From Campylobacterales bacterium (lineage in GTDB: Bacteria; Campylobacterota; Campylobacteria; Campylobacterales; SZUA-545): DNA of 33,682 bases. The position numbers and the translations under genes were made by a program. Below are positions 18,116-33,682 of the stretch, piece by piece (position 1 is the first letter of the stretch; each line of letters opens with the position of its first letter). The stretch is from NCBI GenBank assembly GCA_025800305.1, contig JAOXRY010000284.1:1-33682 (forward strand), in the 5' to 3' direction. Under the pieces are notes generated by a model. The model ran no database searches. It was not told the DNA's origin and saw nothing but the letters and a program-made list of their open reading frames with translations.

Positions 18116-19294
18116 ATGGAAAAAGAAAATTTATCGAAAAAACTAATATCTCTTTTTTGGGATCTCAAAATTCTTTATGTAGAAGATGAAGATCTTATCT
18201 ATAAAAATATGACAAGAATACTCAGACGTATCTGCAACACAGTCGACTTAGCTCACAACGGCAAAGAGGGCTATGAAATGTATCAACAAAAAGATTATGA
18301 CATTATCATTACAGACCTTGAAATGCCTATAAAAGATGGGTTTTGGCTAATTGACAAAATCCGAGAGGAGACCTTACGGCAGTTTATTGTTGTCACTACA
18401 GCATACACAGATCCAGCTCATATTGAAGGTTGTCTTGATAGAGGAGTAAATGGATTTATTTCAAAACCTATTAGAATAGAAAGTCTCTTTAAAAGACTTC
18501 AAGGTTTTGGATTAGATCTTCAAAAAGATCTGGAAATAAAAAGATTAAAAGAAGAAGCAGAAAGTAAGGTGATTCTTGAAAACCACCAAACGTTACTCAG
18601 CAATATCTCCCATCATTGGAGACAACCTTTAAACTCAATATCTATAGGAGTAACAGCTTTAGAAATTGAATTAGACGAAATACTTACAAAAGAGCAAAAA
18701 AACTCTTTAGAGAGAATCCACAAAATAGTGCAAAACCTTTCAAAAAGTATTGAAGAGTTCAGAAGAATAGGTACAGTAGATAGAGAAAATAAAGAATTTG
18801 ATTTTGTAGAACTTGTCCATGACGTTCAAAATATTGTCCAACCTGTTTTTGAAGAACTTAAAATCCAATCAAAAGTCTCATCAGAAACTGAAGAAATAAC
18901 TTACTTTGCACCTAAAAACGCTATAGGACAAATTATCAACTCAGTTTGTAATAATGCTATTGAAAGTATTCAAAGAGATCTAGACAACTCTCCAACTTCT
19001 AAAGAATACTTTATAAACTTCTCCCTAAACACTACAGAAAACTTTATAGAACTAAAAATTACAGATAATGGAGATCAGTTCTCTAAAGATGTTCTTGATA
19101 GTATTTTTGCTCCTTACAGTTCAGCCCATAAGTACGACTCTGGAAGTGGACTAAGTCTTTACAAAGCTTATAAAATTTTAAAAACTTCGGGAGGGGATAT
19201 TAAAATTCAAAATCTTGAAGATGGCTCCACTTTAGTAACTTGTGTCTTCTATAAAAATGCTTTTATTAATGTAGATACGGAAGAGAAATCGTAA
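18116..19294 (+). CDS. Response-regulator/histidine-kinase hybrid (N-terminal REC, C-terminal kinase)
   Basis: 392 aa; REC: ILYVEDEDLIYKN...IIITDLEMPIKDGF...VVTTAY...FISKPI; kinase: ISHHWRQPLNSISIGV, NNAIESIQ, DNGDQFSKD, SGSGLSLYKAYK. Confidence 0.87.
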   Translation: MEKENLSKKLISLFWDLKILYVEDEDLIYKNMTRILRRICNTVDLAHNGKEGYEMYQQKDYDIIITDLEMPIKDGFWLIDKIREETLRQFIVVTTAYTDPAHIEGCLDRGVNGFISKPIRIESLFKRLQGFGLDLQKDLEIKRLKEEAESKVILENHQTLLSNISHHWRQPLNSISIGVTALEIELDEILTKEQKNSLERIHKIVQNLSKSIEEFRRIGTVDRENKEFDFVELVHDVQNIVQPVFEELKIQSKVSSETEEITYFAPKNAIGQIINSVCNNAIESIQRDLDNSPTSKEYFINFSLNTTENFIELKITDNGDQFSKDVLDSIFAPYSSAHKYDSGSGLSLYKAYKILKTSGGDIKIQNLEDGSTLVTCVFYKNAFINVDTEEKS

Positions 19295-21920
19295 AAATAG
19301 CTCCCTTGTCACCATTTTGAACCATCAGCTTTCCACCCATACTGTTTTCTATAATCATTTTAGAAAGGTTCAAGCCTATTCCTGTTCCCATATCTCCTTT
19401 TGTAGTGAAGTAAGAATCAAATATTTTTTCAATTACACCCTCATCAATACCTCCTCCATTATCTTCTATCTCGATAACTCCGTTCTCTTCTATAGTCTGA
19501 CAAGAAACCCTAATAAACTTATCTTCACTTTCTATTTTTTCCAAAGCATCCTTACCATTACTAACAATATTTATAATCACTTGTTGGAGTTCTGAATCAA
19601 TTCCTAGCACTTTGCAATCTGCTTTAAACTCTTTTATTATTTCAATACCTTTAGAGTTAATGTTTTTTTCAACAATTGCCAAAGACTTTTCTATGGATTT
19701 TTTTAGAGAAAAAGGTAAAGACTTTTTATCTGGTCTAAAAAAGTTTCTTAAATCATCAATACTATCAGCCATAAACTTCACCTGTGAAGTAATATCTTCT
19801 GTAATTTCACTTAGATCTTCTTCTGTCAAATCGTTAAACTGATAACTATCTAAGATGGTCTCACTTCCCAAACTTATCGCACTAAGAGGTTGTTTTAGCT
19901 GGTGAGCTATAATTCCAATTAGATCTCCCATAGCTGCTTTTTTCTGATTTAGAAAATTTTCTTTTTGTAAAGACTCAACTTTCTTTACCTCTTCTTCAAC
20001 TTTCTTCTCTAAATTCTCATTGAGAACTCCTAAAGTTTCTTGAAGCAGAACATCGCTGGTCACATCAATCATGGTTCCTATCACTTTTGCAGGAATACCA
20101 TTGTCCCCTAGTTTCACCTCACACTGAATCTCAACCCACTTAATAGATTGATTATTCATAACTAATCGAACCCGAATCTTCGATGGTTTTTTGTCCCTTA
20201 ATAAAGTTTCATACTTTGTCTTTATCTTCTTCCTATCATCAGGGTGAACCACTTGTGTAAAAGAATCAGAAGATGGTTTTACCTTAGTTTTATCCAGACC
20301 TAAAATATTAAAAAACTCCCCTGACCAAGCCTCTTTATTTTCTATTAAGTCTTCTTCAAAAATTCCAAGTTTTGCGACCTTTTGTGCCCTTAAAAGTTTT
20401 CTCTCATTCTCTTTTAAATCTGTAACATCTTGAACAACTCCCACCATTTTTACAACAACACCGTCTTTTTCAATTGGGTTTCCTATTGCATGAATTGTTC
20501 TAATATGATTTTTTCTAATAATCCGATATTCAAAATCAAAAGGAACATTTTTTTCTAATGTGTTAATAACCTCTCTTTGATGCTTTGATAGATCTTTTTC
20601 ATATATTAAAGATTCTATAACTTGAAGATTAATATCTGTACCTTTTTCTAGTCCATAAATATCATAAGTTATATCACTCCAAGTCGTCACGTCATTAATA
20701 CTATCCCATTCCCAACTTCCTAAATTTGCAATAGATACAGCATTATCTAAAGTGTTTTTCAGTGCTGTTAACGCAAGATTTTGTCTTTTTTCATTGGTAA
20801 TATCTCTCACTGAGGCATAGATCACTTCTTTTTCTTGGATCTTAATTCGTACTGCTGAGATAGCCGCTATATATGTTGTTCCATCTTTTCGTGTGTGAGT
20901 TCTTTCAACAAACTTTGGAATTCCAATCTCTACATCAGATATTAAATCTTGATAGTCTTCAATTTTTTTAATATCTAAATCCCAATCCATCACACTTAAA
21001 GATAGCAGTTCGCTTTTTGTATATCTTAGCAAAACAGCTATTTGATTGCTAAGATCTAAGATCTTCCCATTTTCACAAGAAAGAATTAAAACCCCATCAG
21101 ACGAATATTCCATCAAAGATTGAAACTTCTCTTTCTCTTCAATATAAAGCATCATGTTTTTTTGCGTCTCTACATACTGAGCATCAAGTTCTAAGTAGGC
21201 ATTTTCCAATCTCTTAGAAGAGCTTTCTTGTTTAGATAGGTAATCGTTAAATGCTTCTATTAAAACTCCTATCTCATCGCCATTTTTTGAAGGAATAAGG
21301 TTTTTTTTGTTTTCAACACTTTTATTTTTCACCATATAAGATAGATGAACAATAGGAACAACAACTCTTCTCCAAATAAAAATCATAGTAGAGGCAAAAA
21401 GCATCACAGAAACAAAAATAAGAGATAAAGAGATATATTTCATTTTTTCAAAACGATTTTTTACCAACTCTTTATTGTGCTCTATATAAGAGATAACACT
21501 TTGGTTTAGTTGATTTAATAATCCTATTAGTTGACTCTCTTGTAATTTTTTAAAGTAATTTTTTTGATTACTCTTAATGGTTAGTAGATAATACTCATTT
21601 AAAACTGCTCCATATTGTTCTAAAGTCTTTTCTATAAGTTTAGTATTTATATTGGTAGATTCTATTTTTTCAATATCTTTTTTAAGTTTTTTGTACCGAC
21701 TTTTAATTAAAAAATATCTATGTTGTTCTTTATTTTGAATAAAATCATATGTCTCCATATTAAGCTCTGTTACTCGTGAAGAAAATTCTATTGCTTTAGT
21801 ATTGATTTGCTCTTGTTGAGTAAAAAACATATAGGTTGTATTAATAAGATATCCACAAACCCCAACAATTGACAATAAAGAGATTCCAATTAAAAAATTA
21901 AGGTTCTTAATACTCATCAT
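19266..21920 (-). CDS. Membrane PAS-domain sensor histidine kinase
   Basis: 884 aa; two N-terminal TMs, HAMP-like region, multiple PAS/PAC segments (ILDLSNQIAVLLRYTKSELLSLSVMDWD; VVGVVQDVTDLKENER; VIGTMIDVTSDV), H-box IIAHQLKQPLSAISLGSETI, GTGIGLNLSKMIIENSMGG. Confidence 0.9.
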   Translation of the reverse strand: MMSIKNLNFLIGISLLSIVGVCGYLINTTYMFFTQQEQINTKAIEFSSRVTELNMETYDFIQNKEQHRYFLIKSRYKKLKKDIEKIESTNINTKLIEKTLEQYGAVLNEYYLLTIKSNQKNYFKKLQESQLIGLLNQLNQSVISYIEHNKELVKNRFEKMKYISLSLIFVSVMLFASTMIFIWRRVVVPIVHLSYMVKNKSVENKKNLIPSKNGDEIGVLIEAFNDYLSKQESSSKRLENAYLELDAQYVETQKNMMLYIEEKEKFQSLMEYSSDGVLILSCENGKILDLSNQIAVLLRYTKSELLSLSVMDWDLDIKKIEDYQDLISDVEIGIPKFVERTHTRKDGTTYIAAISAVRIKIQEKEVIYASVRDITNEKRQNLALTALKNTLDNAVSIANLGSWEWDSINDVTTWSDITYDIYGLEKGTDINLQVIESLIYEKDLSKHQREVINTLEKNVPFDFEYRIIRKNHIRTIHAIGNPIEKDGVVVKMVGVVQDVTDLKENERKLLRAQKVAKLGIFEEDLIENKEAWSGEFFNILGLDKTKVKPSSDSFTQVVHPDDRKKIKTKYETLLRDKKPSKIRVRLVMNNQSIKWVEIQCEVKLGDNGIPAKVIGTMIDVTSDVLLQETLGVLNENLEKKVEEEVKKVESLQKENFLNQKKAAMGDLIGIIAHQLKQPLSAISLGSETILDSYQFNDLTEEDLSEITEDITSQVKFMADSIDDLRNFFRPDKKSLPFSLKKSIEKSLAIVEKNINSKGIEIIKEFKADCKVLGIDSELQQVIINIVSNGKDALEKIESEDKFIRVSCQTIEENGVIEIEDNGGGIDEGVIEKIFDSYFTTKGDMGTGIGLNLSKMIIENSMGGKLMVQNGDKGAIFTISLPYLH

Positions 21921-22913
21921 CTAATCCTGTAAAGTAACTCTTTCTTTTTGTATCGATCTTAAAACTTCTCTATCAAAAATTTTGTGAAAATCTACCTTCT
22001 TCTTTTGAACAATTTTGTTTTCTACCAGCCAATCACCTTCTATCTCCATAAGAGTTTTTAAATAGTATGGCAAACCAACCGCAAAAGAGTGTTTTCCTAA
22101 AGTGTAATCTGTGTAACGACTGTCATATTGAAAAGTTTCTTGAACCAGTTTTTTGAATTTTTCTGGATTATTTTCAATCCATTGCTCTGCTTTAATAAAT
22201 GCTGATAAAAGTCTTTTAGAAACCTCTGGATTTTTATGATGGAACTCTTTATCCACTGAAAATGTAAAGTAAAAATGAAACCCCACAGGCACTGGTGAAT
22301 AGAAAAACTCACCTTTATACTCTCTTGTCATATTATAAAGAAAAGGCTCCCAAGTAAAAAGTCCGTCAATTTCTCCACTTTTTAAAGCTTCTCCCCTTTT
22401 TTGAAAAGGTACATCTACCAAATCAAAATCTTTTAATAAAACACCGTTTTGTACTGCAAAAACTCCAGCATAAAACTCAGTAGCAGTTCCTAGTGAAGTC
22501 CCTATTGTTTTCCCTTTTATATCCAGTGTCTTTTTTATTCCATGGGATTTTTTTCCAATAAAACCGTTGATATTTCCCTCACCTGTAGAGGCAAGAATAG
22601 AAAAACTGTTGGTTTGAAATGCATTTTTCATATTAACAAACTCAGTAGAATTGGCAAAATCCACCTCTTTGTTTACCAATGCTTTAAATCCATCTCTACC
22701 AGTAGGAAAATAATTTATCTCTACATTTGTAAGACCTTCTCCTTCTATAAAACCTAATTTGTCTGCAACAATCTGCACCATACTGGCTTCTCCATTGTAA
22801 AGCCCGATTCTTACTGGGACAGAGATCTCAACAAAAGACTCTCTGTTTTTACTACAGGATGAAAAAACAAAAGCTAAAATAAAAGCTGTAAATATAAGTA
22901 ATCTTATAGCCAT
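21921..22913 (-). CDS. NMT1/ThiY/SsuA-like solute-binding lipoprotein
   Basis: 330 aa; lipobox AFVFSSCSKN; VRIGLYNGEASMVQIVADKLGFIEGEGLTNVEINYFPTGRDGFKALVNKEVDFANSTEF is the NMT1-type pattern; its stop codon directly abuts the PAS-kinase start. Confidence 0.82.
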   Translation of the reverse strand: MAIRLLIFTAFILAFVFSSCSKNRESFVEISVPVRIGLYNGEASMVQIVADKLGFIEGEGLTNVEINYFPTGRDGFKALVNKEVDFANSTEFVNMKNAFQTNSFSILASTGEGNINGFIGKKSHGIKKTLDIKGKTIGTSLGTATEFYAGVFAVQNGVLLKDFDLVDVPFQKRGEALKSGEIDGLFTWEPFLYNMTREYKGEFFYSPVPVGFHFYFTFSVDKEFHHKNPEVSKRLLSAFIKAEQWIENNPEKFKKLVQETFQYDSRYTDYTLGKHSFAVGLPYYLKTLMEIEGDWLVENKIVQKKKVDFHKIFDREVLRSIQKERVTLQD

Positions 22914-23173: not shown

Positions 23174-25948
23174 CTATTTCATATTCTTAGGATTGAGCTC
23201 TGTATAGATAATATTTTTAGTTTCTAAATATTTATTTGCTGTATTTTTAATGTCTTTAGGTGTTATAGATCTAATCATTTTCTCAAAATTATCAATTCTA
23301 TTTAAATTATCCCCATAGTAGTAGTGTTTTTTCAGTTGACCCATCCAAAACTTACCTTTCTTTTTAGCCTCTTTTAGATTTACTAATCTTTTTTTCACAT
23401 ATGCATTTACATATTTTTTATCAACTGTGTTGGTTTTTATATTTTTAATCTCTTCTTTAAGATATTTAACCAGTTCATCTTTTCTTGCTGGGTCGCATGA
23501 GAATGTTATATCTAAAGCAGCATGTTCATATGGCACTCTTATAAAATTACTACCAACTCTTATTCCATAAACCCCAGATTTTTCTTCTCTGATTAATTCT
23601 CTTAACTTAGTTTTTAGCACATCAGTAAAAGCACTTAATCTTATTGCTTCCATTGTTGAATATTTTGCTTCTTTGATGTAACTTAAAGATATGTCACTGA
23701 TATTTTCATTGTTATAAAATCTAATAAACTTATGTTCCCCTTGAACTTGCTTATTTCCTCTGAAGTTATAGGTCTCATCTCTTTTTGTTACTGGAAGATT
23801 TCCTAAGAACTTGGTAATGTATTTTTTTACTTCATCTTTTTCTATATCTCCAACAACAATAAATGTGAAGTTATTTAAGTCAGAGAATCTATCTTTATAG
23901 ATTTCCAACATTCTTTTTTTATCTAAAGCTTTTACATCATGCTTATCGTATTCGACAAATCTTTCATCGTTGCTATATCTATAGGCGTTTAACTCTTTAG
24001 AGAATTTTCTTGTAGGAATTCTATTCTGTTTTTTTAGGTTTGCCAAAGTGATGTGTTTTGTATTTTCAAAAATATTATCATCAAATTGGTATTTCGTTGT
24101 AAATAGATAAATTGTTTCTAAAAAATACTGAAAATCTTTAGTTGTGGTAGTTCCACCTAAAGACTCTCCATATCTACTTAAAGAGGAGTTAAAACTGATA
24201 CTTTTATCGTTATAGATCTTTTTATAGTCTAATATGTTGTAGTTGTCATATCCTGATTTACCAATGATTTTAACTGCAAACTTTGCATTGGCAAGATCTT
24301 TTGTATCATAAAGAGAAAAACCACCTTTTGAAAAAGCATTTATATAGACTTTGTTTTTCTTATAATTGTTAAATTTATAGGCTACTTTTATCCCGTTTTT
24401 TAGAGTAAATTCATAAAAATCATATTTTTTATTGTAGTTTTCTTTAACAATCTTGGAAGGCTTTAGTTTTTTTAGATCTACAATTCTATCTGGAAGGTCT
24501 TTTGAGATTTTTTGCTTTTTTACTCTTTTTTTCCCGTTTGCTAAGATCTTTTTAACTCTTCTTTTTGAAACATCTTTACTTTCAGGAAGTTGGTAAGTAA
24601 TAATTCTGCTTTTACTTTTTAAAATATCTCTATAGGCTTTATTTACATCCTTTAGGGTAATTTCAGATAATAGTCTCTCTTTTAACTTGATTTTGTACTT
24701 TTCATCGATAAATATCTCATCTACATGAGCTATATTTACTATCTCATCAACATATCTATTGGAGGTTTTATTTTTTAAAGCTTTTAGGCTATCTTGGTTG
24801 GCTTTTTTCATCTTTTTGATGGTTCTTTTAAAGTCACCTTTATCAAAACCATATTTTTCAATGGAGTAGATGAGAGAAGTTAACTCTTCTAAAGCTTTAA
24901 TCTCATTGGAGCCAGTAAAAGAACTTCCAAAGTTAAAACTTAATAGATTAGTTCCAAGATACCCAAGTCTCATTCCTATTGATTTTGCAGCTGGGTTTCT
25001 TTTAATTGTTTGTTCATTGCCTTTAATGTTAAATAGTTTAGGAATGATTTTATAAATCAGATCTTTTTTATAATCAGCCTCTGTTTTAGTTTTATATGCT
25101 TCTTTATAAAAGCTAATACCAGTGCTATATTTTGTAAGTTCTTTATCTCTTGCAACAACAACTCTTGTTTTATTAACTAAAGGAACCTCTCTAGATGCTT
25201 GTTTTCTACTACTTTTGTTTTTTAGATCTTTAAAAGTTTTTATAATGAGTTTTTCAATTTTTCCTACATCAAAATCCCCTGCAATTACAAAGTGCATTAA
25301 TTCTGGTCTATACCAGTCGTCGTAAAAAGCTTTAACTCTTTTAAGAGAGATGTTTTTTACAATATCCATATCACCTATTGGTGTTCTATCAAGATATTTA
25401 CTATTTGCATAATATACATCTTGGGCTTGAAGGAACATTCTAAATCTGACATTGTTTCTAGATCTGGCTTCTTCTAGAACTACACCTCTCTCTTTATCTA
25501 ACTCTTTTTGGGTAATTACAACTCCCCCTGCCCAATCTTTAAATACAAGCATCGCTTTTTCAAGATTATCATCTTTAAGTGGTACTTCTAGTTTATATAG
25601 AGTTCTTGTAGTGCTAGTACTTGCATTTAAGTGATTTCCAAAGCCTACTCCCATTGATTCTAAAAATGTTATTAAGTCATTACCTGGAAAGTTCTCTGTT
25701 CCATTAAAAGCCAAATGCTCTACCAAATGTGCAATCCCCTTTTGATCGTCATCCTCTTCCAAGGAACCGGCTTCTACTAAGAGTCTAAAAGAGGCTTTAT
25801 CTTGTGGTTTGGAGTTTTTCTTAATTGTATATTTTAAACCGTTTTTTAACTCTCCTGTAACAAGTGATGGTTCTACAGGTAGGTCTTTCCCTGTAAGTGT
25901 TGTAACAAGACAGAGTATTACAAATACTATGGTTTTTATTCTATTCAT
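23174..25948 (-). CDS. M16 family (PqqL/FusC-type) periplasmic zinc metallopeptidase
   Basis: 924 aa; signal peptide; inverted zinc motif HLVEH in KGIAHLVEHLAFNGTENFPGN; two-halved M16 architecture. Confidence 0.92.
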   Translation of the reverse strand: MNRIKTIVFVILCLVTTLTGKDLPVEPSLVTGELKNGLKYTIKKNSKPQDKASFRLLVEAGSLEEDDDQKGIAHLVEHLAFNGTENFPGNDLITFLESMGVGFGNHLNASTSTTRTLYKLEVPLKDDNLEKAMLVFKDWAGGVVITQKELDKERGVVLEEARSRNNVRFRMFLQAQDVYYANSKYLDRTPIGDMDIVKNISLKRVKAFYDDWYRPELMHFVIAGDFDVGKIEKLIIKTFKDLKNKSSRKQASREVPLVNKTRVVVARDKELTKYSTGISFYKEAYKTKTEADYKKDLIYKIIPKLFNIKGNEQTIKRNPAAKSIGMRLGYLGTNLLSFNFGSSFTGSNEIKALEELTSLIYSIEKYGFDKGDFKRTIKKMKKANQDSLKALKNKTSNRYVDEIVNIAHVDEIFIDEKYKIKLKERLLSEITLKDVNKAYRDILKSKSRIITYQLPESKDVSKRRVKKILANGKKRVKKQKISKDLPDRIVDLKKLKPSKIVKENYNKKYDFYEFTLKNGIKVAYKFNNYKKNKVYINAFSKGGFSLYDTKDLANAKFAVKIIGKSGYDNYNILDYKKIYNDKSISFNSSLSRYGESLGGTTTTKDFQYFLETIYLFTTKYQFDDNIFENTKHITLANLKKQNRIPTRKFSKELNAYRYSNDERFVEYDKHDVKALDKKRMLEIYKDRFSDLNNFTFIVVGDIEKDEVKKYITKFLGNLPVTKRDETYNFRGNKQVQGEHKFIRFYNNENISDISLSYIKEAKYSTMEAIRLSAFTDVLKTKLRELIREEKSGVYGIRVGSNFIRVPYEHAALDITFSCDPARKDELVKYLKEEIKNIKTNTVDKKYVNAYVKKRLVNLKEAKKKGKFWMGQLKKHYYYGDNLNRIDNFEKMIRSITPKDIKNTANKYLETKNIIYTELNPKNMK

Positions 25949-27231
25949 TATTTTCCTTGTATTATTTTTGTAGATATTAATTTATTAAAAAGAACTAGAG
26001 TTATCAAAGAATAGATCCCTCCAACAACAAGCAGACCAAAAGGAATCAAATGGGTATTAATATCTCTTTTTGTAAGTTTTACAAATAGTATTAAAGCAAA
26101 ACCTAACAAGATATTAAGATAGAGTGCTTTTATATGAACATCTCTTACCTCTATTTGATAGTGACCACTATTGCCTAAAAAAACCACGGTTCTAAAAGGA
26201 AGTACCAACTCTTTAATAGTCTCATAAATTGTTGAACCTTTATAAAGAAATTGGAAGGTTTTTTTCTTTAAAAGCTCATAATCTAAATTTGTAATATATG
26301 TATCTACAACCTTTGTATCTCTTGCTTCATCGAAAGATGTAATATTGATAATTCTATTGATTGGAGTTGTGGATATTTTGAACTCTTTTGTTTTATAGTC
26401 ATATGTATCAATAGGGAGCTTAACCAGTTCATAATCATCATCCATCATAAGATAGAGTTGACTTTTTTGATCAATAATAACTCCATAATACTCTTTTCGA
26501 ACGTCCTCTTTAATGAGAGCAAATTTAAAATCTATTCCATTTAAATCAACTCTGTTTAAAAGAGGTTTGCCATCTACTTGAATTAAATGAAAAAGTTGAT
26601 TTTTATTATCACTGATGAAATACCCTATATCAAATGGTTTTTGAGTACTAGGAGTACCATATGCTTCTTTCAGTGGAAATACTGCACCTTTTTCTAAAAA
26701 TAACTTGTTATAAGCTTCTGATTTTTTCTTATCTACACTATTTGTCTTAGTAGTTATAAATGTGATTCCATCTTTATCTAATCTAAATAGATCCTCAGGC
26801 AAAGAGAGCCCTGAATACTTTGGATTTGATTCAAATAGTGGATAGAGGTTTACTACTTTTGTATTGATAAAACTTGGCTTTATCTTTAAAAAACTCTTCT
26901 CTCTTTTTATGGCATTTAAATCAAAAGAGTAAGAGATAAACTCTTTGGGAAAGTTATCAGTTTTTAAAAGATCATAGTAATATCTAAAAGGAAATTTTGA
27001 TTTAAATTGGTCTAATGTGTACTCTTTTGTACCATCAAGATTTGAGTAAATGATTTTTCTCTCTTTTCCTCCTAGTGCAGTTTTTTTAATAAAGTCTTTT
27101 TCAACAGGGGAGTAATAGACCCATTCTCTATCAATTCTAGTTGAAAAAATATCTTTATACATTTTTGGGATAAGTATAGATAAGAGTAAAGTAGCAATTA
27201 TTATTATCGGATATATTCTTAAGCTTATCAT
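25948..27231 (-). CDS. DUF4857-like membrane protein associated with an ABC transporter
   Basis: 427 aa; N-terminal TM, large soluble domain (GITFITTKTNSVDKKKSEAYNKLFLEKGAVFPL resembles recalled Bacteroidota DUF4857 sequences), C-terminal TMs; overlaps the permease by 4 nt (ATGA). Confidence 0.6.
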   Translation of the reverse strand: MISLRIYPIIIIATLLLSILIPKMYKDIFSTRIDREWVYYSPVEKDFIKKTALGGKERKIIYSNLDGTKEYTLDQFKSKFPFRYYYDLLKTDNFPKEFISYSFDLNAIKREKSFLKIKPSFINTKVVNLYPLFESNPKYSGLSLPEDLFRLDKDGITFITTKTNSVDKKKSEAYNKLFLEKGAVFPLKEAYGTPSTQKPFDIGYFISDNKNQLFHLIQVDGKPLLNRVDLNGIDFKFALIKEDVRKEYYGVIIDQKSQLYLMMDDDYELVKLPIDTYDYKTKEFKISTTPINRIINITSFDEARDTKVVDTYITNLDYELLKKKTFQFLYKGSTIYETIKELVLPFRTVVFLGNSGHYQIEVRDVHIKALYLNILLGFALILFVKLTKRDINTHLIPFGLLVVGGIYSLITLVLFNKLISTKIIQGK

Positions 27232-27905
27232 TTTATATACCCTTTTGTGTAAGATCTAAAAACTTCATAGCTGGTAAGAATATAGATTATTATCACTGTA
27301 ATAGCAGAGATATTAATAACTTCACCCATAAAATAACCTCCTGTTGCCTTTGGTAAATAAACCATTAAAAAGTAAAAAGCAATAAGGATATAAAGGACTT
27401 TTTTTATAATTTTTGGTTCTAAAAAAGCTATCATTGTTGCAAGATAACACAAGATAGATCCTAAATACATTGGAAAAAGTTTTGTAAATATTCCTTGAAA
27501 AACCTCTTTTGGGTAGTAGCTATTTAAAATCAAAGAGTAGAATAGGGTAATAATAAAAAAACTCAAAATCAGTAGAATAAGTCCAGATGAAAATAGAATT
27601 GTTATCAGTTGGACATGCTTCATTGGCAGATGAAGAAATAGCCTTATCCTAGCACTTGAAACTTCTGGATAATATTGAGCAATTCCAAGTGAGATTCCAA
27701 ATACCATTAAGATGTAGTTCATGAGATTAAATTCAAACCGTCCCATTTGGGTAATAGATAAAATAGCACTGGTAGAGTTGATAAACTCCATATTGTTCTT
27801 AGCATCTATAAAAGTATCAAATAGACTCCATCCTATAATAACAGCAAAAAGTGCTATGATTTTGTAGCTTTTGAGCCACTCTTTATATATAATTCCTCCT
27901 ACCAT
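27228..27905 (-). CDS. ABC-2-type transporter permease
   Basis: 225 aa, about 6 TM segments, directly downstream of an ABC ATPase. Confidence 0.78.
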   Translation of the reverse strand: MVGGIIYKEWLKSYKIIALFAVIIGWSLFDTFIDAKNNMEFINSTSAILSITQMGRFEFNLMNYILMVFGISLGIAQYYPEVSSARIRLFLHLPMKHVQLITILFSSGLILLILSFFIITLFYSLILNSYYPKEVFQGIFTKLFPMYLGSILCYLATMIAFLEPKIIKKVLYILIAFYFLMVYLPKATGGYFMGEVINISAITVIIIYILTSYEVFRSYTKGYIK

Positions 27906-28793
27906 CTAATATCTCCCTGTATAACCCATAAAGGCTCTTTCAAACCCCATAGGTATCTTTGTTATCTTCTCAAAAGAGAGGTCTCTATGTTCAAGTTCTT
28001 TAGTGACCTCTTCTAGAGATTTAAAACTATAGATATAGGAATAGTTGTTAAAGTATTCAAAATTTGTTATTACATCATTAGACTCTATGTTTAAATTTTC
28101 AATACCCTCTATCTTATATTGAAAAAAATTATTGGTAAACTCATCTACTGTTGAGTGTAGAATAGGCTGTTTTCTATCTAAGATAATAATATCATCTAAA
28201 ATATTCTCTAAATTCTCCATAACATGAGTTGTCATTAAAACGGTTTTTTTGTACTTAATTACATACTCTTTTAAATACTCTAAAAATAGGCTTCTATAAC
28301 CTACATCCAGTCCTAAAGAGTAGTCATCAAGGATTAAAAGCTCAGGATCTTGGGCAAAAATAAGTCCCAATACAACTTGGGATCTTTGACCACATGAAAG
28401 TTTTCTAATAACTTGATTATTGGAAACATTGAGTTTTCCAACCAGCTCATAGTAGAGTTTCTTTTTCCATCTATTTGGGAAAAATTTAGAGTAGTATTTC
28501 TCAATTTGTTCAATAGTCATAAAGTCATATTGAATGTGGCCTTCATGTAAAAGTCCAATTTTTCCTTTGGTTGTAGGTGATAGATTATGAGAAGGCTCTC
28601 CATAGATGAGACACTCCCCTGATGTTGGCTCCAAGCACCCCATTAAAATATTAATTGTTGTAGATTTCCCTACACCATTTTTTCCTAAAAGACCTACAAT
28701 CTTTCCTTCAGGAATAAAAAAAGAGAAGTCTTCAAAAATCTTTTTTTTCCCGTAGTAGTGTGTAAGGTTTTTACATTCTATTATTTTTTTCAT
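27906..28793 (-). CDS. ABC transporter ATP-binding protein
   Basis: 295 aa; Walker A GLLGKNGVGKSTT, signature LSCGQRSQ, Walker B LLILDD, H-loop MTTHVME. Confidence 0.93.
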   Translation of the reverse strand: MKKIIECKNLTHYYGKKKIFEDFSFFIPEGKIVGLLGKNGVGKSTTINILMGCLEPTSGECLIYGEPSHNLSPTTKGKIGLLHEGHIQYDFMTIEQIEKYYSKFFPNRWKKKLYYELVGKLNVSNNQVIRKLSCGQRSQVVLGLIFAQDPELLILDDYSLGLDVGYRSLFLEYLKEYVIKYKKTVLMTTHVMENLENILDDIIILDRKQPILHSTVDEFTNNFFQYKIEGIENLNIESNDVITNFEYFNNYSYIYSFKSLEEVTKELEHRDLSFEKITKIPMGFERAFMGYTGRY

Positions 28794-28801
28794 CTACCTC
28801 C

Positions 28802-31291
28802 CTAAAACTTATAAGCAACTTTAAACCAAAGCTGTCTACCAGTTTTGTAGTTACTTTTTGAATTTTCAACGTTATAAACTTTGTCAAATAGATTATTAAC
28901 TTCAGTATTTAATATTAGGTTCTTCTTTGGAGTAACCTTAAAGTTAAATGTTGCTTTTAGATCTAAAGTTGTTACTGCTTTAAAGTGTATATCTCCGTAA
29001 ATAGGGACTTCTATATCCTCTGTTTTTCCGTTAGGCAATGTTGAAGTATAAGTTGTAGTAGCATCACCATCAGCTTTTCCAAGATCTGTATAGGAAGCTT
29101 TATGCTTTATAATACTATTCACATTTGTTCTACAAGAAGTTCCAAAAAATTCAAAAGATTGAAAAGCAAAATTTAGGTGAAGATTATAAGTTCTTGGTTT
29201 AGACTTTATGTTTAGATCATTGGAATCGTAAAACTCTCCCTTATAATAAACCTTATTACTGTCATTTTCACTATCTTCACTTATAGCACTATCATCGTAA
29301 TCTGTTATATTTTTCGTAGTTTCTTTCCATGAAGTGGAAAATTTATATCCCATACTAAAAGACTGAAATCTAATTGGTTCTACAGGACCTATATTTAAGG
29401 TAGTATTTTTAGATTCAGATCTACCTTCATTTGTAAAAAAAGTAGGTTTATAATAGTCCTTTGTAACACCATCAGGCATTGTAAATATTTTATAATCATC
29501 TTTTTTTTTGGAAAATTTATCTTTAGCTTCCCTTTGTACATATTTAAGATTAAATCTTATATTTGAAAAATCCTTTCTTAAACCTATTAATGATTCATCA
29601 CTATAGGGTGTTTTTAAATCTGAAAAAACATATTTTCCATCATCTTTATCAGAACTAGAACCCCAATCATTTACTACATTTTGATGGGTTTTTCTGTATT
29701 CATCATAATAAGGGATTCTTGCCTCTCTTAATTTAAAACCTAAAAATGATTTTCCATAATATCGATTGAAGCCCCCATATACAACTGTTTTATTATTTTT
29801 AAAAGGTTTAATAGAAGAGTTTACTCTATAAGAGTAGTCGTGATTTTTTAAGTAGTCATTGTAATCATATCTCAAACCAGGGGTTATTTCAAAGTTTTTA
29901 TACTCTATCTTATCTTCTAGAAATAAAGAGTGTGACAGCATATCTACACTGGTACTTTCTGCTTGATAAACTCTTCTTTCTGTAAAGAACTGTTCATAGT
30001 AAAAACAGCCTTGTGTATCACCGTTACAATCAATATTATAGTTAAATTCATGATTACTGTAATAGTGCATATCTTCTTCTCTATCAAATTTGGCACTATT
30101 AAGATTAATATCAAATCCTGTTTTTAATTTATGAATTAAAGAAGATGTTTCTATAGTGTCTGAAAATAATTTTAAATTGTAAGCCATACCACTATTCTCT
30201 TTTTCTATTGTTCCACTTCCTCCTTCAATTGAGTAGTCGTTTCCGCTACCGTTTTTTAAGCCCCAGTTCTTATCATCTGAATATCCCCATTTTTTATGAT
30301 AATTTAAAGATTTTTTAGAGTTTTGATTATATTTATAAGCAAGACTAGATTTTAAATTCCAAAAGTCATACCCTTTCTCATAGTTTGCTTTAAGTGAGTA
30401 CCCTCCACCTTTAATTTTTGTATTTGAGTCTTTTACATATTCTAAAAAGTGGGTTGAGTTATATGGAGAGTGTGTTCCTGTAATATCTAAAATAGCGTCA
30501 TCTTCAAAATAGTGACTCCACTTGAAAAAGAGTGATTGATTTAATCTCTCTTTATCTCTAAATCCCCCAAAATATGCTCCAGGAATAATAGATTCTTTTC
30601 TATTGTAAGAGAAGATAACTCCATTTTCATCATTAATAGGCATACTAGCGTAGGCAGAGTAGAAGTGCTTCTCAAATCTTGGTTGGGATTTATCAGACCT
30701 TGCTTTTTCAAACTCCTCTTTATTGGATACATGAAATTTTGTTAATTTATCACTTGTATGACCATAAGAGACTTTGTATACTGGTTCTGCTCCAGCTCTT
30801 ATAGTTTTTACATCTATAACCCCACCTGTAAAATTTCCATATTCAGCAGAGATCCCTGAGTCATATACCTCAATTGATTCAACCAAATCTAGATCTAAAA
30901 AGATCTCATTCTCATTTCCTGGTGCATCATAAGAATTAAATGTACCTGATAGATTTGGGTCAATCAATGAGTCGTTTGATACTCCATCAATTTGAAAATT
31001 ATTTTGATAAAAAGGAGCATCATTTATAGATACTTTTCCAGGGGTAATTTCTCCTGCTGTTTTAGAGTTTTTAGATTGATCTGAAACTTCAATATTTGGA
31101 TTTGTTTCAAGTAAAGATCCAATAAAACCGTTGCCTTGTACCGAATTTTCAATCTCGGTTCTATCAATTTTTGTTCCAGAGATTGAGGTACTTGAAGTAT
31201 CTTGGCTTCCGTCTACTGTAATTACAGAAAGACTCTCTGCAAAAAGAGCCTTTCCTGATAATAAAGCTGCTAATAAAAGCTTATAATTCAT
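28802..31291 (-). CDS. TonB-dependent outer-membrane receptor
   Basis: 829 aa; signal peptide; plug domain (SVITVDGSQDTSSTSISGTKIDRTEIEN...FQIDGVSNDSLIDP...VESIEVYDSGISAEYGNFTGGVIDVKT); beta-barrel ending in ...WFKVAYKF. Confidence 0.92.
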   Translation of the reverse strand: MNYKLLLAALLSGKALFAESLSVITVDGSQDTSSTSISGTKIDRTEIENSVQGNGFIGSLLETNPNIEVSDQSKNSKTAGEITPGKVSINDAPFYQNNFQIDGVSNDSLIDPNLSGTFNSYDAPGNENEIFLDLDLVESIEVYDSGISAEYGNFTGGVIDVKTIRAGAEPVYKVSYGHTSDKLTKFHVSNKEEFEKARSDKSQPRFEKHFYSAYASMPINDENGVIFSYNRKESIIPGAYFGGFRDKERLNQSLFFKWSHYFEDDAILDITGTHSPYNSTHFLEYVKDSNTKIKGGGYSLKANYEKGYDFWNLKSSLAYKYNQNSKKSLNYHKKWGYSDDKNWGLKNGSGNDYSIEGGSGTIEKENSGMAYNLKLFSDTIETSSLIHKLKTGFDINLNSAKFDREEDMHYYSNHEFNYNIDCNGDTQGCFYYEQFFTERRVYQAESTSVDMLSHSLFLEDKIEYKNFEITPGLRYDYNDYLKNHDYSYRVNSSIKPFKNNKTVVYGGFNRYYGKSFLGFKLREARIPYYDEYRKTHQNVVNDWGSSSDKDDGKYVFSDLKTPYSDESLIGLRKDFSNIRFNLKYVQREAKDKFSKKKDDYKIFTMPDGVTKDYYKPTFFTNEGRSESKNTTLNIGPVEPIRFQSFSMGYKFSTSWKETTKNITDYDDSAISEDSENDSNKVYYKGEFYDSNDLNIKSKPRTYNLHLNFAFQSFEFFGTSCRTNVNSIIKHKASYTDLGKADGDATTTYTSTLPNGKTEDIEVPIYGDIHFKAVTTLDLKATFNFKVTPKKNLILNTEVNNLFDKVYNVENSKSNYKTGRQLWFKVAYKF

Positions 31292-33682
31292 TAATTAACA
31301 TTATCGTAAGGTAAGGTGTCTATAGTATCTAAAATACCATCACCATCAATATCATCATCTATTTCTAGACCTGAAGCAGTAATGTCTGCTTCAGTGGCAC
31401 CTAGGTTAAAAAAGTCTGGTTTTCCATCACCATCAGAGTCTACACTAGCTACACTACTACCTAATAATTGATCAAATTCAGCTAAAGCTTTAGCTCCATA
31501 TACATATGCTAACTCTTTCTCTTTTGTAGTTTTGATTTTTTCAAGAACTGATTTTAATTTGGTTACATCATTAAGACTACCATATCCACTTACCACACTA
31601 ACAAGATAGTCGTATTGTGTTGCTGTATCATAAGATACCCTATCAGAACCTAAAGATTTGATTTCAGTTTCATATACTTGTTTAATTATATCTTCTGCTT
31701 TAGATTTATCTCCAACTTGATAATAACCATTGGCAATGGATGATTCAAAGTTACTTGAATTATTGTATATTCCTATTAGTGATTTCATTCTATCTTTAAT
31801 ATTGTCTTTATCCCCAGCTACAAATTGATTGTCAGTATTAACTTGATTTAAAGCTCTTTCTAGTAATCCTTTTGCTTCTGTTTGTTTTTTATTTATAGAT
31901 AGGATATTGGCAATTTTAACAATATCTTCAACATCTGTAGTTGTATTTGCAAAGGTCTCTAGAGAATCTAATATAGAAACTACATCAATTTCATTTTCAT
32001 ACCCTAACTCTTTTGCCGCATCCCAAATATTTAATAAACCATCTACTTTTTCTGAAGCACTATCTGGAAAACTTTTTAGCTTTACAATTGATTCATTGAT
32101 TGTATCTTTGGCACTTTGATTCTCTCCCAGATCTTTATACATACTTGCAATTGCCAAATATCCATATCTATTTCTATGGTTTGTGTTACTCCAATATCCA
32201 TAAACTTTTTTTGCATCTCCTTCACTTATATTAGAATCACCTCCATACCATGTATCAGCTAAGACTCTTAGTCTGTCCAAATAATCTTTTAAGTCACTAT
32301 CTGTTCCTAAAATTTTAATAGCCATTGCTGTGGGAATCAAATTAGTTGGTTGTAGTTGAGTGCTGTATTGCATTAATTTTTCTTTATTTGAAGAAGAATA
32401 GTATGTATCAACTCCATAGTAATCAGTAAATAGCTTGTCTTTTTGACCATTTAGAAAAAGTGCTGTACCAGCACCTCTTTGAATGGCATCATCAACATAG
32501 GAATTACTAAGAGTTCCAAGCTCAGTAATAACTGTATCCATATCAGTAGTATTAAGAGCATTATAAGCGACTTGAAGATTTTTCATTGACGAACTTAAAG
32601 CACCGTTTTCTATACCACCAAATGCTTTTTCTGCTATTGTTGTTGTATCTTTTCCAAATATTTTTCCATGGATTGCTATAGTCGCAAGGTGGAATTGTGC
32701 AGATTTCTTTTCTGGATCTGCAGGAAAATTGTTACCTAATTCAATATTTTTATCATATGATTTTCTAGCATTTTCAATATCATTATAATAAGTGATAAAA
32801 TCTGTTGATAAATCATCAATTAAGTTTGTTATTTTTTGATAATCATTTACTTGTTGTTTAGCCACAGGAGTTGATGAGGTAGCTGTATATCTATTGGCTT
32901 CTAAATAATATTGTGTATAGCCCGTTAGTTTATTAATTACTGTATTTGCACCGGTTATTTCTAAACTATTATTGTCTTCAAAATGACCTGTTTTTGACAG
33001 ATGCCTTATAATATATGAGAGATCGTTCTGTTCAGAAGTAGCTATACTTTCATCTTGTCCATCTTTAGAAAGTATAGTCTGTTTTACAATTTCATACTCT
33101 TTTGTAAAAGCTTTTGCTGCTACTGTTTTCTCATCAATTTCAAGTAATAACTTACCTAGAGTTCTATATCCATCTTGCTTTTCACTAGGTGTATAAACGT
33201 TATCCTTAATATGTTCAAGACCTTCATCATAAAAACCAAGTTTTGTTAGTCCTTTTGCAACTTCTGAATTTATAGGATCGTTTACACCATCACTATAAAG
33301 AACTTTTGTTAGTTCAATTATACTGGCTATATTAGATTTATTTGAATATGCGTAATAGTTCCTTCTTTTTGTTTGATCATTTCCTACAACTTGAGCATAA
33401 CTACTGGCATCGAAAAGTACAAAACCACTGATATCTAAAATATTAATAGCTTTACTATCTATATAGGTTTGAAACTCATTTAACGTTAAAGTTAATCTAT
33501 CTGCAGTTGTTATATTTAATTCACCATCTTCAAATTTAGGTAACAGATCAAGGTCTGTTAGAGCTTTTCTAATATGATAAGAGGTGATAACATGAGTCTT
33601 ACTATCCTTTTTATTTGCTGCCACAATTTTTTGTTTGGGAGAATAAGAGGTTTGTTTTGAAAACCGGTAGGTTTGTAGGGTG
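31291..33682 (-). CDS. Large helical-repeat protein with C-terminal DxDxDGxxD calcium-binding-type motifs; 5' end outside the window
   Basis: Tracked start at 33624 is a GTG; the same frame stays open upstream to the window edge (...TLQTYRFSKQTSYSPKQKI-VAANKKDSK), so the N-terminus is missing. C-terminus VDSDGDGKPDFFNLGATEADITASGLEIDDDIDGDGILDTIDTLPYDNVN. TPR-like helical repeats suggested by alternating amphipathic segments. TAATG overlap with the receptor. Confidence 0.75.
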   Translation of the reverse strand, partial: TLQTYRFSKQTSYSPKQKIVAANKKDSKTHVITSYHIRKALTDLDLLPKFEDGELNITTADRLTLTLNEFQTYIDSKAINILDISGFVLFDASSYAQVVGNDQTKRRNYYAYSNKSNIASIIELTKVLYSDGVNDPINSEVAKGLTKLGFYDEGLEHIKDNVYTPSEKQDGYRTLGKLLLEIDEKTVAAKAFTKEYEIVKQTILSKDGQDESIATSEQNDLSYIIRHLSKTGHFEDNNSLEITGANTVINKLTGYTQYYLEANRYTATSSTPVAKQQVNDYQKITNLIDDLSTDFITYYNDIENARKSYDKNIELGNNFPADPEKKSAQFHLATIAIHGKIFGKDTTTIAEKAFGGIENGALSSSMKNLQVAYNALNTTDMDTVITELGTLSNSYVDDAIQRGAGTALFLNGQKDKLFTDYYGVDTYYSSSNKEKLMQYSTQLQPTNLIPTAMAIKILGTDSDLKDYLDRLRVLADTWYGGDSNISEGDAKKVYGYWSNTNHRNRYGYLAIASMYKDLGENQSAKDTINESIVKLKSFPDSASEKVDGLLNIWDAAKELGYENEIDVVSILDSLETFANTTTDVEDIVKIANILSINKKQTEAKGLLERALNQVNTDNQFVAGDKDNIKDRMKSLIGIYNNSSNFESSIANGYYQVGDKSKAEDIIKQVYETEIKSLGSDRVSYDTATQYDYLVSVVSGYGSLNDVTKLKSVLEKIKTTKEKELAYVYGAKALAEFDQLLGSSVASVDSDGDGKPDFFNLGATEADITASGLEIDDDIDGDGILDTIDTLPYDNVN

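Follow-up and report, generated by a model that had tools for sequence, protein, structure and literature searches.

The best described relatives of the locus reported here are the Fus system of Pectobacterium (FusA, FusB, FusC and FusD) and the yddA-yddB-pqqL cluster of E. coli. Cleavage by FusC frees the Fe-S cluster and is required for the acquisition of iron from ferredoxin (PMC7593965). As yddB and pqqL mutants showed no iron-growth defect in LB (PMC6793856), iron is unproven even for the YddB/PqqL model. The passage of the freed iron or cofactor across the inner membrane is an open step in Fus-type systems, in which FusD is only named as a putative ABC transporter. In Bacteroides thetaiotaomicron, BT3625-BT3633 were upregulated 37-128-fold under iron depletion, and BT3625 (DUF4857), BT3626, BT3627 (ABC ATPase), BT3628/29 (PepSY) and BT3633 (TonB-dependent receptor, TBDR) were also upregulated in a colitis model (PMC10434189). 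In the literature searched, a single paper names DUF4857.

The window, a stretch of 33,682 nucleotides, is an entire contig of a 464-contig, ~79%-complete genome of the Campylobacterales. Positions 23174-33682 of its minus strand hold a single tightly coupled operon of six ORFs, with the coordinates first read, which runs from a truncated lipoprotein-family gene through a TBDR, an ABC ATPase, a small permease and a DUF4857 protein to an M16 peptidase (Table 1). The genome being fragmented and the window running the full length of one contig, the head gene has lost its 5' part at the contig end. Head gene and TBDR share one nucleotide (TAATG at 31291), an 8-nt gap (28794-28801) separates TBDR and ATPase, ATPase and permease abut at 27905/27906, permease and DUF4857 genes overlap in ATGA (27228-27231), and the M16 gene follows at a second TAATG (25948). 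Chance is not expected to yield five junctions this short (≤8 nt), and all ORFs, strands and junctions of the six-gene coupled operon described in the initial annotation were reproduced. Promoter- and terminator-like sites around the operon were found near the shuffled expectation, and the operon ends are thus not definable in that way. Two genes on the same strand that abut at 21920/21921 lie 260 bp below the operon (19266-22913). Their products, an NMT1/SsuA-like binding protein and a histidine kinase rich in PAS domains, are probably a separate ligand-sensing pair.

Table 1. Genes of the operon, listed from its head, with their coordinates in the window and the basis of each call.
Feature	Coordinates	Strand	Basis
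Head gene, 3' 796 codons	31291..33682	-	ORF call; homologues; weak AF2/Foldseek solenoid
TonB-dependent receptor (TBDR), FusA/YddB type	28802..31291	-	Pfam Plug; PDB sequence matches
ABC ATPase, DUF4857-linked subfamily	27906..28793	-	Pfam ABC_tran; alignment of 9
Small 225-aa polytopic permease, ABC-2-like	27228..27905	-	Hydropathy; conserved motifs; remote ABC2_membrane_4
DUF4857 protein	25948..27231	-	Pfam PF16149; AF2 model
Secreted two-half M16 metallopeptidase, FusC/PqqL type	23174..25948	-	Pfam; PDB matches; HxxEH

A Pfam search gave M16, DUF4857, ABC_tran and Plug for the operon proteins, as they had been read initially. The receptor (Plug, 3.8e-5) has a signal peptide, and a TonB-box-like SVITV was read by eye near its N-terminus. 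When it was compared with all PDB chain sequences, FusA (4zgv) was matched over nearly the full length at 1.6e-82 and YddB (6ofr) at 1.5e-47, and every further match had E > 0.06. A generic TBDR reading was ruled out, FusA and YddB being the sole PDB sequence matches. The receptors of the sister locus C339, of Arcobacter and of genomes G075 and G082 likewise match FusA and YddB in the PDB sequence search. The protease (M16, 5e-30; M16_C, 1.5e-32) has a hydrophobic N-terminal signal sequence and an intact zinc site (HLVEH, HxxEH). It was aligned end-to-end with the M16 peptidase 9ldy (1.7e-111) and, over ~890 residues, with PqqL (6ofs, 7.6e-77) and FusC (6b03, 2.6e-46). The earlier reading had proposed a resemblance to the FusA/FusC and YddB/PqqL pairs; judged by these PDB searches, receptor and protease are members of the FusA/YddB and FusC/PqqL families, beyond mere resemblance.

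By its receptor and protease, the operon is thus assigned to the protease-associated import systems of the Fus/YddB-PqqL kind, but its inner-membrane module differs. Like Fus, it combines a FusA-family receptor and an M16 protease of the FusC type with an ABC transporter gene, but it has an ATPase, a 225-aa permease and DUF4857 in addition to an extra lipoprotein, and no FusB-like TonB homologue was found in the visible operon, the contig ending upstream. Receptor and protease are also homologous to those of yddA-yddB-pqqL, where an ABC gene belongs to the same cluster, but YddA is a single fused SbmA-type protein (ABC_membrane_2/SbmA_BacA), and no DUF4857 is present. The ABC protein of the TonB-receptor-M16-ABC locus of Pantoea pPAT9B03 is of the same fused type and is similar to the window ATPase at the level of the nucleotide-binding domain (NBD) only. 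No SbmA/BacA-like fused ABC is found in the window operon, which encodes a separate ATPase, permease and DUF4857 protein instead, and the proposed departure from the YddA precedent was thereby borne out. Since a 2019 survey describes the composition of protease-associated clusters as diverse, the fused SbmA/BacA-like ABC is not strictly defining.

The ATPase (ABC_tran, 1.8e-20) was aligned with its DUF4857-linked relatives, the nine members being chosen by DUF4857 and not by motif. The subfamily carries the signature LS[C/F]GQ[R/K]SQ and a C-terminal FExxFxGxxGxY, and in all nine ([IL][LF]DD[YF]S) the Walker B aspartate is followed by Asp, not by the usual catalytic Glu, a substitution that could make the hydrolysis of ATP slow or unusual. 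Among solved structures, the NBDs of the type V exporters ABCA3/ABCA1 are nearest, and in NCBIfam the closest entries are the PmtA/GldA/DrrA exporters. The permease itself matched no Pfam family, and its profile found no relative in the PDB. Among 28 aligned relatives, KEWxK and QFxPExxxxRxKLxLHLP are conserved, and three match ABC2_membrane_4 (best 8e-8). Of the split ABC-2 transporter first proposed, an ATPase and a separate permease stand, whereas the ABC-2 assignment is only remote.

The DUF4857-like protein was correctly recognised: it matches PF16149 at 4.3e-71, with 239.7 bits against a cut-off of 25. Its AF2 model (pLDDT 93, pTM 0.85) predicts a single TM helix at the N-terminus, followed by a beta domain of ~330 residues in the periplasm and a C-terminal TM hairpin of two helices. 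A Foldseek comparison with the PDB gave mostly beta-propellers at TM-scores of about 0.3 or less, with no confident match, and a fold assignment was dropped on those scores. In the alignment, a single His (H215) is nearly invariant and a few Asp/Glu are conserved; no conserved Cys/Met/His cluster was found, a result that counts against an iron function.

The head protein fragment has a TPR-like alpha-solenoid and two C-terminal DxDxDG Ca2+-type motifs; AF2 and Foldseek recovered the solenoid only, at low confidence (pLDDT 61). Homologues in Arcobacter sp. CECT 8985 (41% identity), Desulfoluna and Desulfatibacillum have a lipobox and the same C-terminus, and the full-length relatives are lipoproteins of ~1,010-1,067 aa with an N-terminal beta domain. 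The large Ca2+-motif protein of the initial annotation therefore keeps its motifs but is a truncated gene of this lipoprotein family, and is a putative surface co-receptor. As in RagAB/SusCD, the operon is headed by a surface lipoprotein and a TBDR, but the receptor is FusA-type and the head protein lacks a SusD/RagB match; a SusD/RagB identity was rejected, as neither the window fragment nor a full-length homologue matched in Pfam and the AF2 model was too weak.

Four DUF4857 loci were found in the genome, including the window (C112). One (C339) reads head-TBDR-ATPase-permease-DUF4857 followed by a MASE6 histidine kinase and has no M16, and another (C189) consists of a permease end, DUF4857 and M16. 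The fourth (C111; 156-9936) starts with an ATPase, a fused permease-DUF4857, a Fur homologue, an HMA_2 protein and small hydrophobic proteins, and continues with a P-type ATPase containing an HMA_2 domain, a DUF4198-like protein and other genes; by gene content it may be a ferrosome-like cluster with the DUF4857 transporter at its head. The fused form, which occurs in the same order beside FeoAB or ferrosome-like genes, shares the ATPase subfamily and the DUF4857 domain with the window, but permease and DUF4857 are one chain without the C-terminal TM hairpin. The ends of contigs C397 and C339 overlap by 9 nt, in frame, which would probably put a lipoprotein gene, together with a divergent AraC-type regulator, at the start of the C339 operon, although this adjacency is suggestive only. 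Elsewhere in the genome (C433, 795-3970), a TBDR C-terminus is followed directly by a third M16 of the FusC/PqqL type.

Among 200 genomes of the order, 11 encode DUF4857, and in six of these (G000, G024, G075, G082, G094 and G197, the last being Arcobacter sp. CECT 8985) ATPase, permease and DUF4857 form a split triad. A FusA-like receptor adjoins the split triad in 6/6, compared with 13/200 genomes having such a receptor overall, and the co-conservation of receptor and ABC/DUF4857 genes was thus upheld. A FusC/PqqL-like M16 is likewise present in 6/6 (10/200 overall), linked to the triad in G000, G024, G075 and G197 and unlinked in G082 and G094. Hypergeometric probabilities were 2e-8 for the receptor and 2.5e-9 for M16, relatedness being ignored; the six genomes represent five genera and four families. 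The five genomes with the fused form only, unlike the window, have neither a FusA-like receptor (0/5) nor a FusC/PqqL-like M16 (0/5); two have FeoA-FeoB as neighbours, one a ferrosome-like P-type ATPase cluster, another Fur, ferritin-like and ExbBD-TonB-TBDR genes, and the fifth shows nothing clear. In the window's own family, most FusA-like receptors have a PepSY_TM protein as their partner, and neither a triad nor an M16.

Outside the order, loci were collected with the C-terminal half of the ATPase; a single DUF4857 protein query gave no match. The 80 named loci were chosen by ATPase motifs (GQ[RK]SQ, DD after Walker B), which are thus not counted as findings in this set. Of the 81 entries counted, 76 contain DUF4857 and 73 contain the permease, and the triad is almost invariant across the 80 named loci; its recurrence in >70 loci ruled out DUF4857 as an oddity of one operon. 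In forty loci the sequence reached 8 kb or more upstream of the DUF4857 gene. By raw count, a TBDR was found in 33 of them (32 by HMM and one SusC that it missed, L095), FeoB in five, both together in none, and M16 in six. M16 therefore holds as a partner in part: it is present in all split-triad genomes of the order but unlinked in two of them, absent from C339 and infrequent among the outside loci. The lipoprotein-TBDR-ATPase-DUF4857 order of the window recurs in Desulfatibacillum and Desulfoluna (Desulfobacterota), the Desulfatibacillum locus also carrying ExbB-ExbD-TonB. Bacteroidota loci (L077) read TBDR-DUF4876-DUF6850-ATPase-permease-DUF4857, and the L077 TBDR has no FusA match. BT3625-BT3633 resembles the window in DUF4857, a small hypothetical protein at the permease position, an ABC ATPase and a TBDR, but has PepSY_TM, DUF4876 and fimbrillin-family proteins instead of M16.

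The best explanation, to which we assign a probability of roughly 60%, is a protease-associated import operon of the Fus/YddB-PqqL kind for a metal-bearing polypeptide, with another type of module at the inner membrane. The surface lipoprotein and the FusA-type receptor would capture the polypeptide, which would be drawn into the periplasm by TonB energy and cleaved by the M16 protease, which would release a metal or a metal cofactor, iron being the likeliest. At the inner membrane, the released iron or cofactor would be handled by the triad with its periplasmic DUF4857 domain, and peptides would leave through an ordinary oligopeptide importer. We infer the substrate class, the order of events and iron as the cargo. 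A metal- or heme-bearing polypeptide had been proposed initially, and it is the link to metal, and to iron, that is strengthened by the neighbouring Feo, ferrosome-like and Fur genes, as well as by the induction of the Bacteroides version under iron starvation. Against this explanation count the exporter-like NBDs, the C339 operon without M16 and the FeoB that adjoins the triad at some loci, where an iron importer would be redundant.

In an alternative reading, the triad imports no product but exports a chelator, reductant or peptide, or acts by ATP-driven mechanotransmission on the periplasmic DUF4857 domain. Its NBD kinship with ABCA1/ABCA3 and with PmtA/GldA/DrrA and the lack of a separate substrate-binding protein in the triad would be accounted for, and co-occurrence with FeoB would no longer be redundant. 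However, neither a gene for a peptide precursor nor one for chelator biosynthesis was recognised in the window operon and the sister loci inspected, and we regard this alternative as unlikely, with perhaps one chance in a few.

Import of polypeptides as a carbon or nitrogen source in a RagAB/Opp-like manner, with digestion by M16 and any metal incidental, appears somewhat less probable again. It would agree with the Arcobacter sp. CECT 8985 operon, where lipoprotein-TBDR-ATPase-permease-DUF4857-M16-TonB-ExbB-ExbD is continued on the same strand, the genes overlapping or lying a short gap apart, by an oligopeptide importer (SBP_bac_5, two BPD_transp-type permeases and an ATPase), and with an Algicola locus reading SusC-SusD-ATPase-permease-DUF4857-M16. 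However, a Fur homologue lies near the Algicola locus, the Bacteroides version responds to iron starvation, and the associations of the triad extend to FeoAB, to ferrosome-like genes and to TBDR loci without a protease. Because the Arcobacter operon already has an oligopeptide importer, its triad more likely serves a metal or cofactor than peptides. Given this dedicated importer after M16, and with no peptide gene recognised, the two-way peptide system suggested at first found no support. Two unrelated functions in one operon, Fus-like import and a housekeeping ABC transporter, would fit order-mates that have M16 and receptor each without the triad, but are very improbable given the receptor adjoining every split triad of the order and the recurrence of the gene order in Desulfobacterota.

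Of most general interest is the DUF4857 triad. The operon places at the inner-membrane step a different and much more widespread ABC/DUF4857 module, which is also linked to the iron-starvation loci of Bacteroides and to Feo and ferrosome-like loci, and points to an unstudied step of iron uptake. Tentatively, and with less than even odds, the triad may represent a previously undescribed, phylum-spanning class of inner-membrane transporter or mobilising machine for iron or iron cofactors, with interchangeable feeders: FusA-type receptors with a protease, other TBDRs with DUF4876/DUF6850 or PepSY, FeoAB, or ferrosome-like clusters. As DUF4857 is so rarely named, a sizeable part of how bacteria take up metals may have escaped study.

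Two further proteins were observed beside the module. A DUF4198 protein adjoins the triad in 9/81 entries, mostly with FeoAB or ferrosome-like genes (L009, L022, L062 and others), hinting at a further periplasmic partner. In Calditrichota/Ignavibacteria, a membrane Fer4_5 protein of ~640-660 aa follows DUF4857 or M16 (L034, 12517-14442; L049, 15352-17325), suggesting a reductive step.
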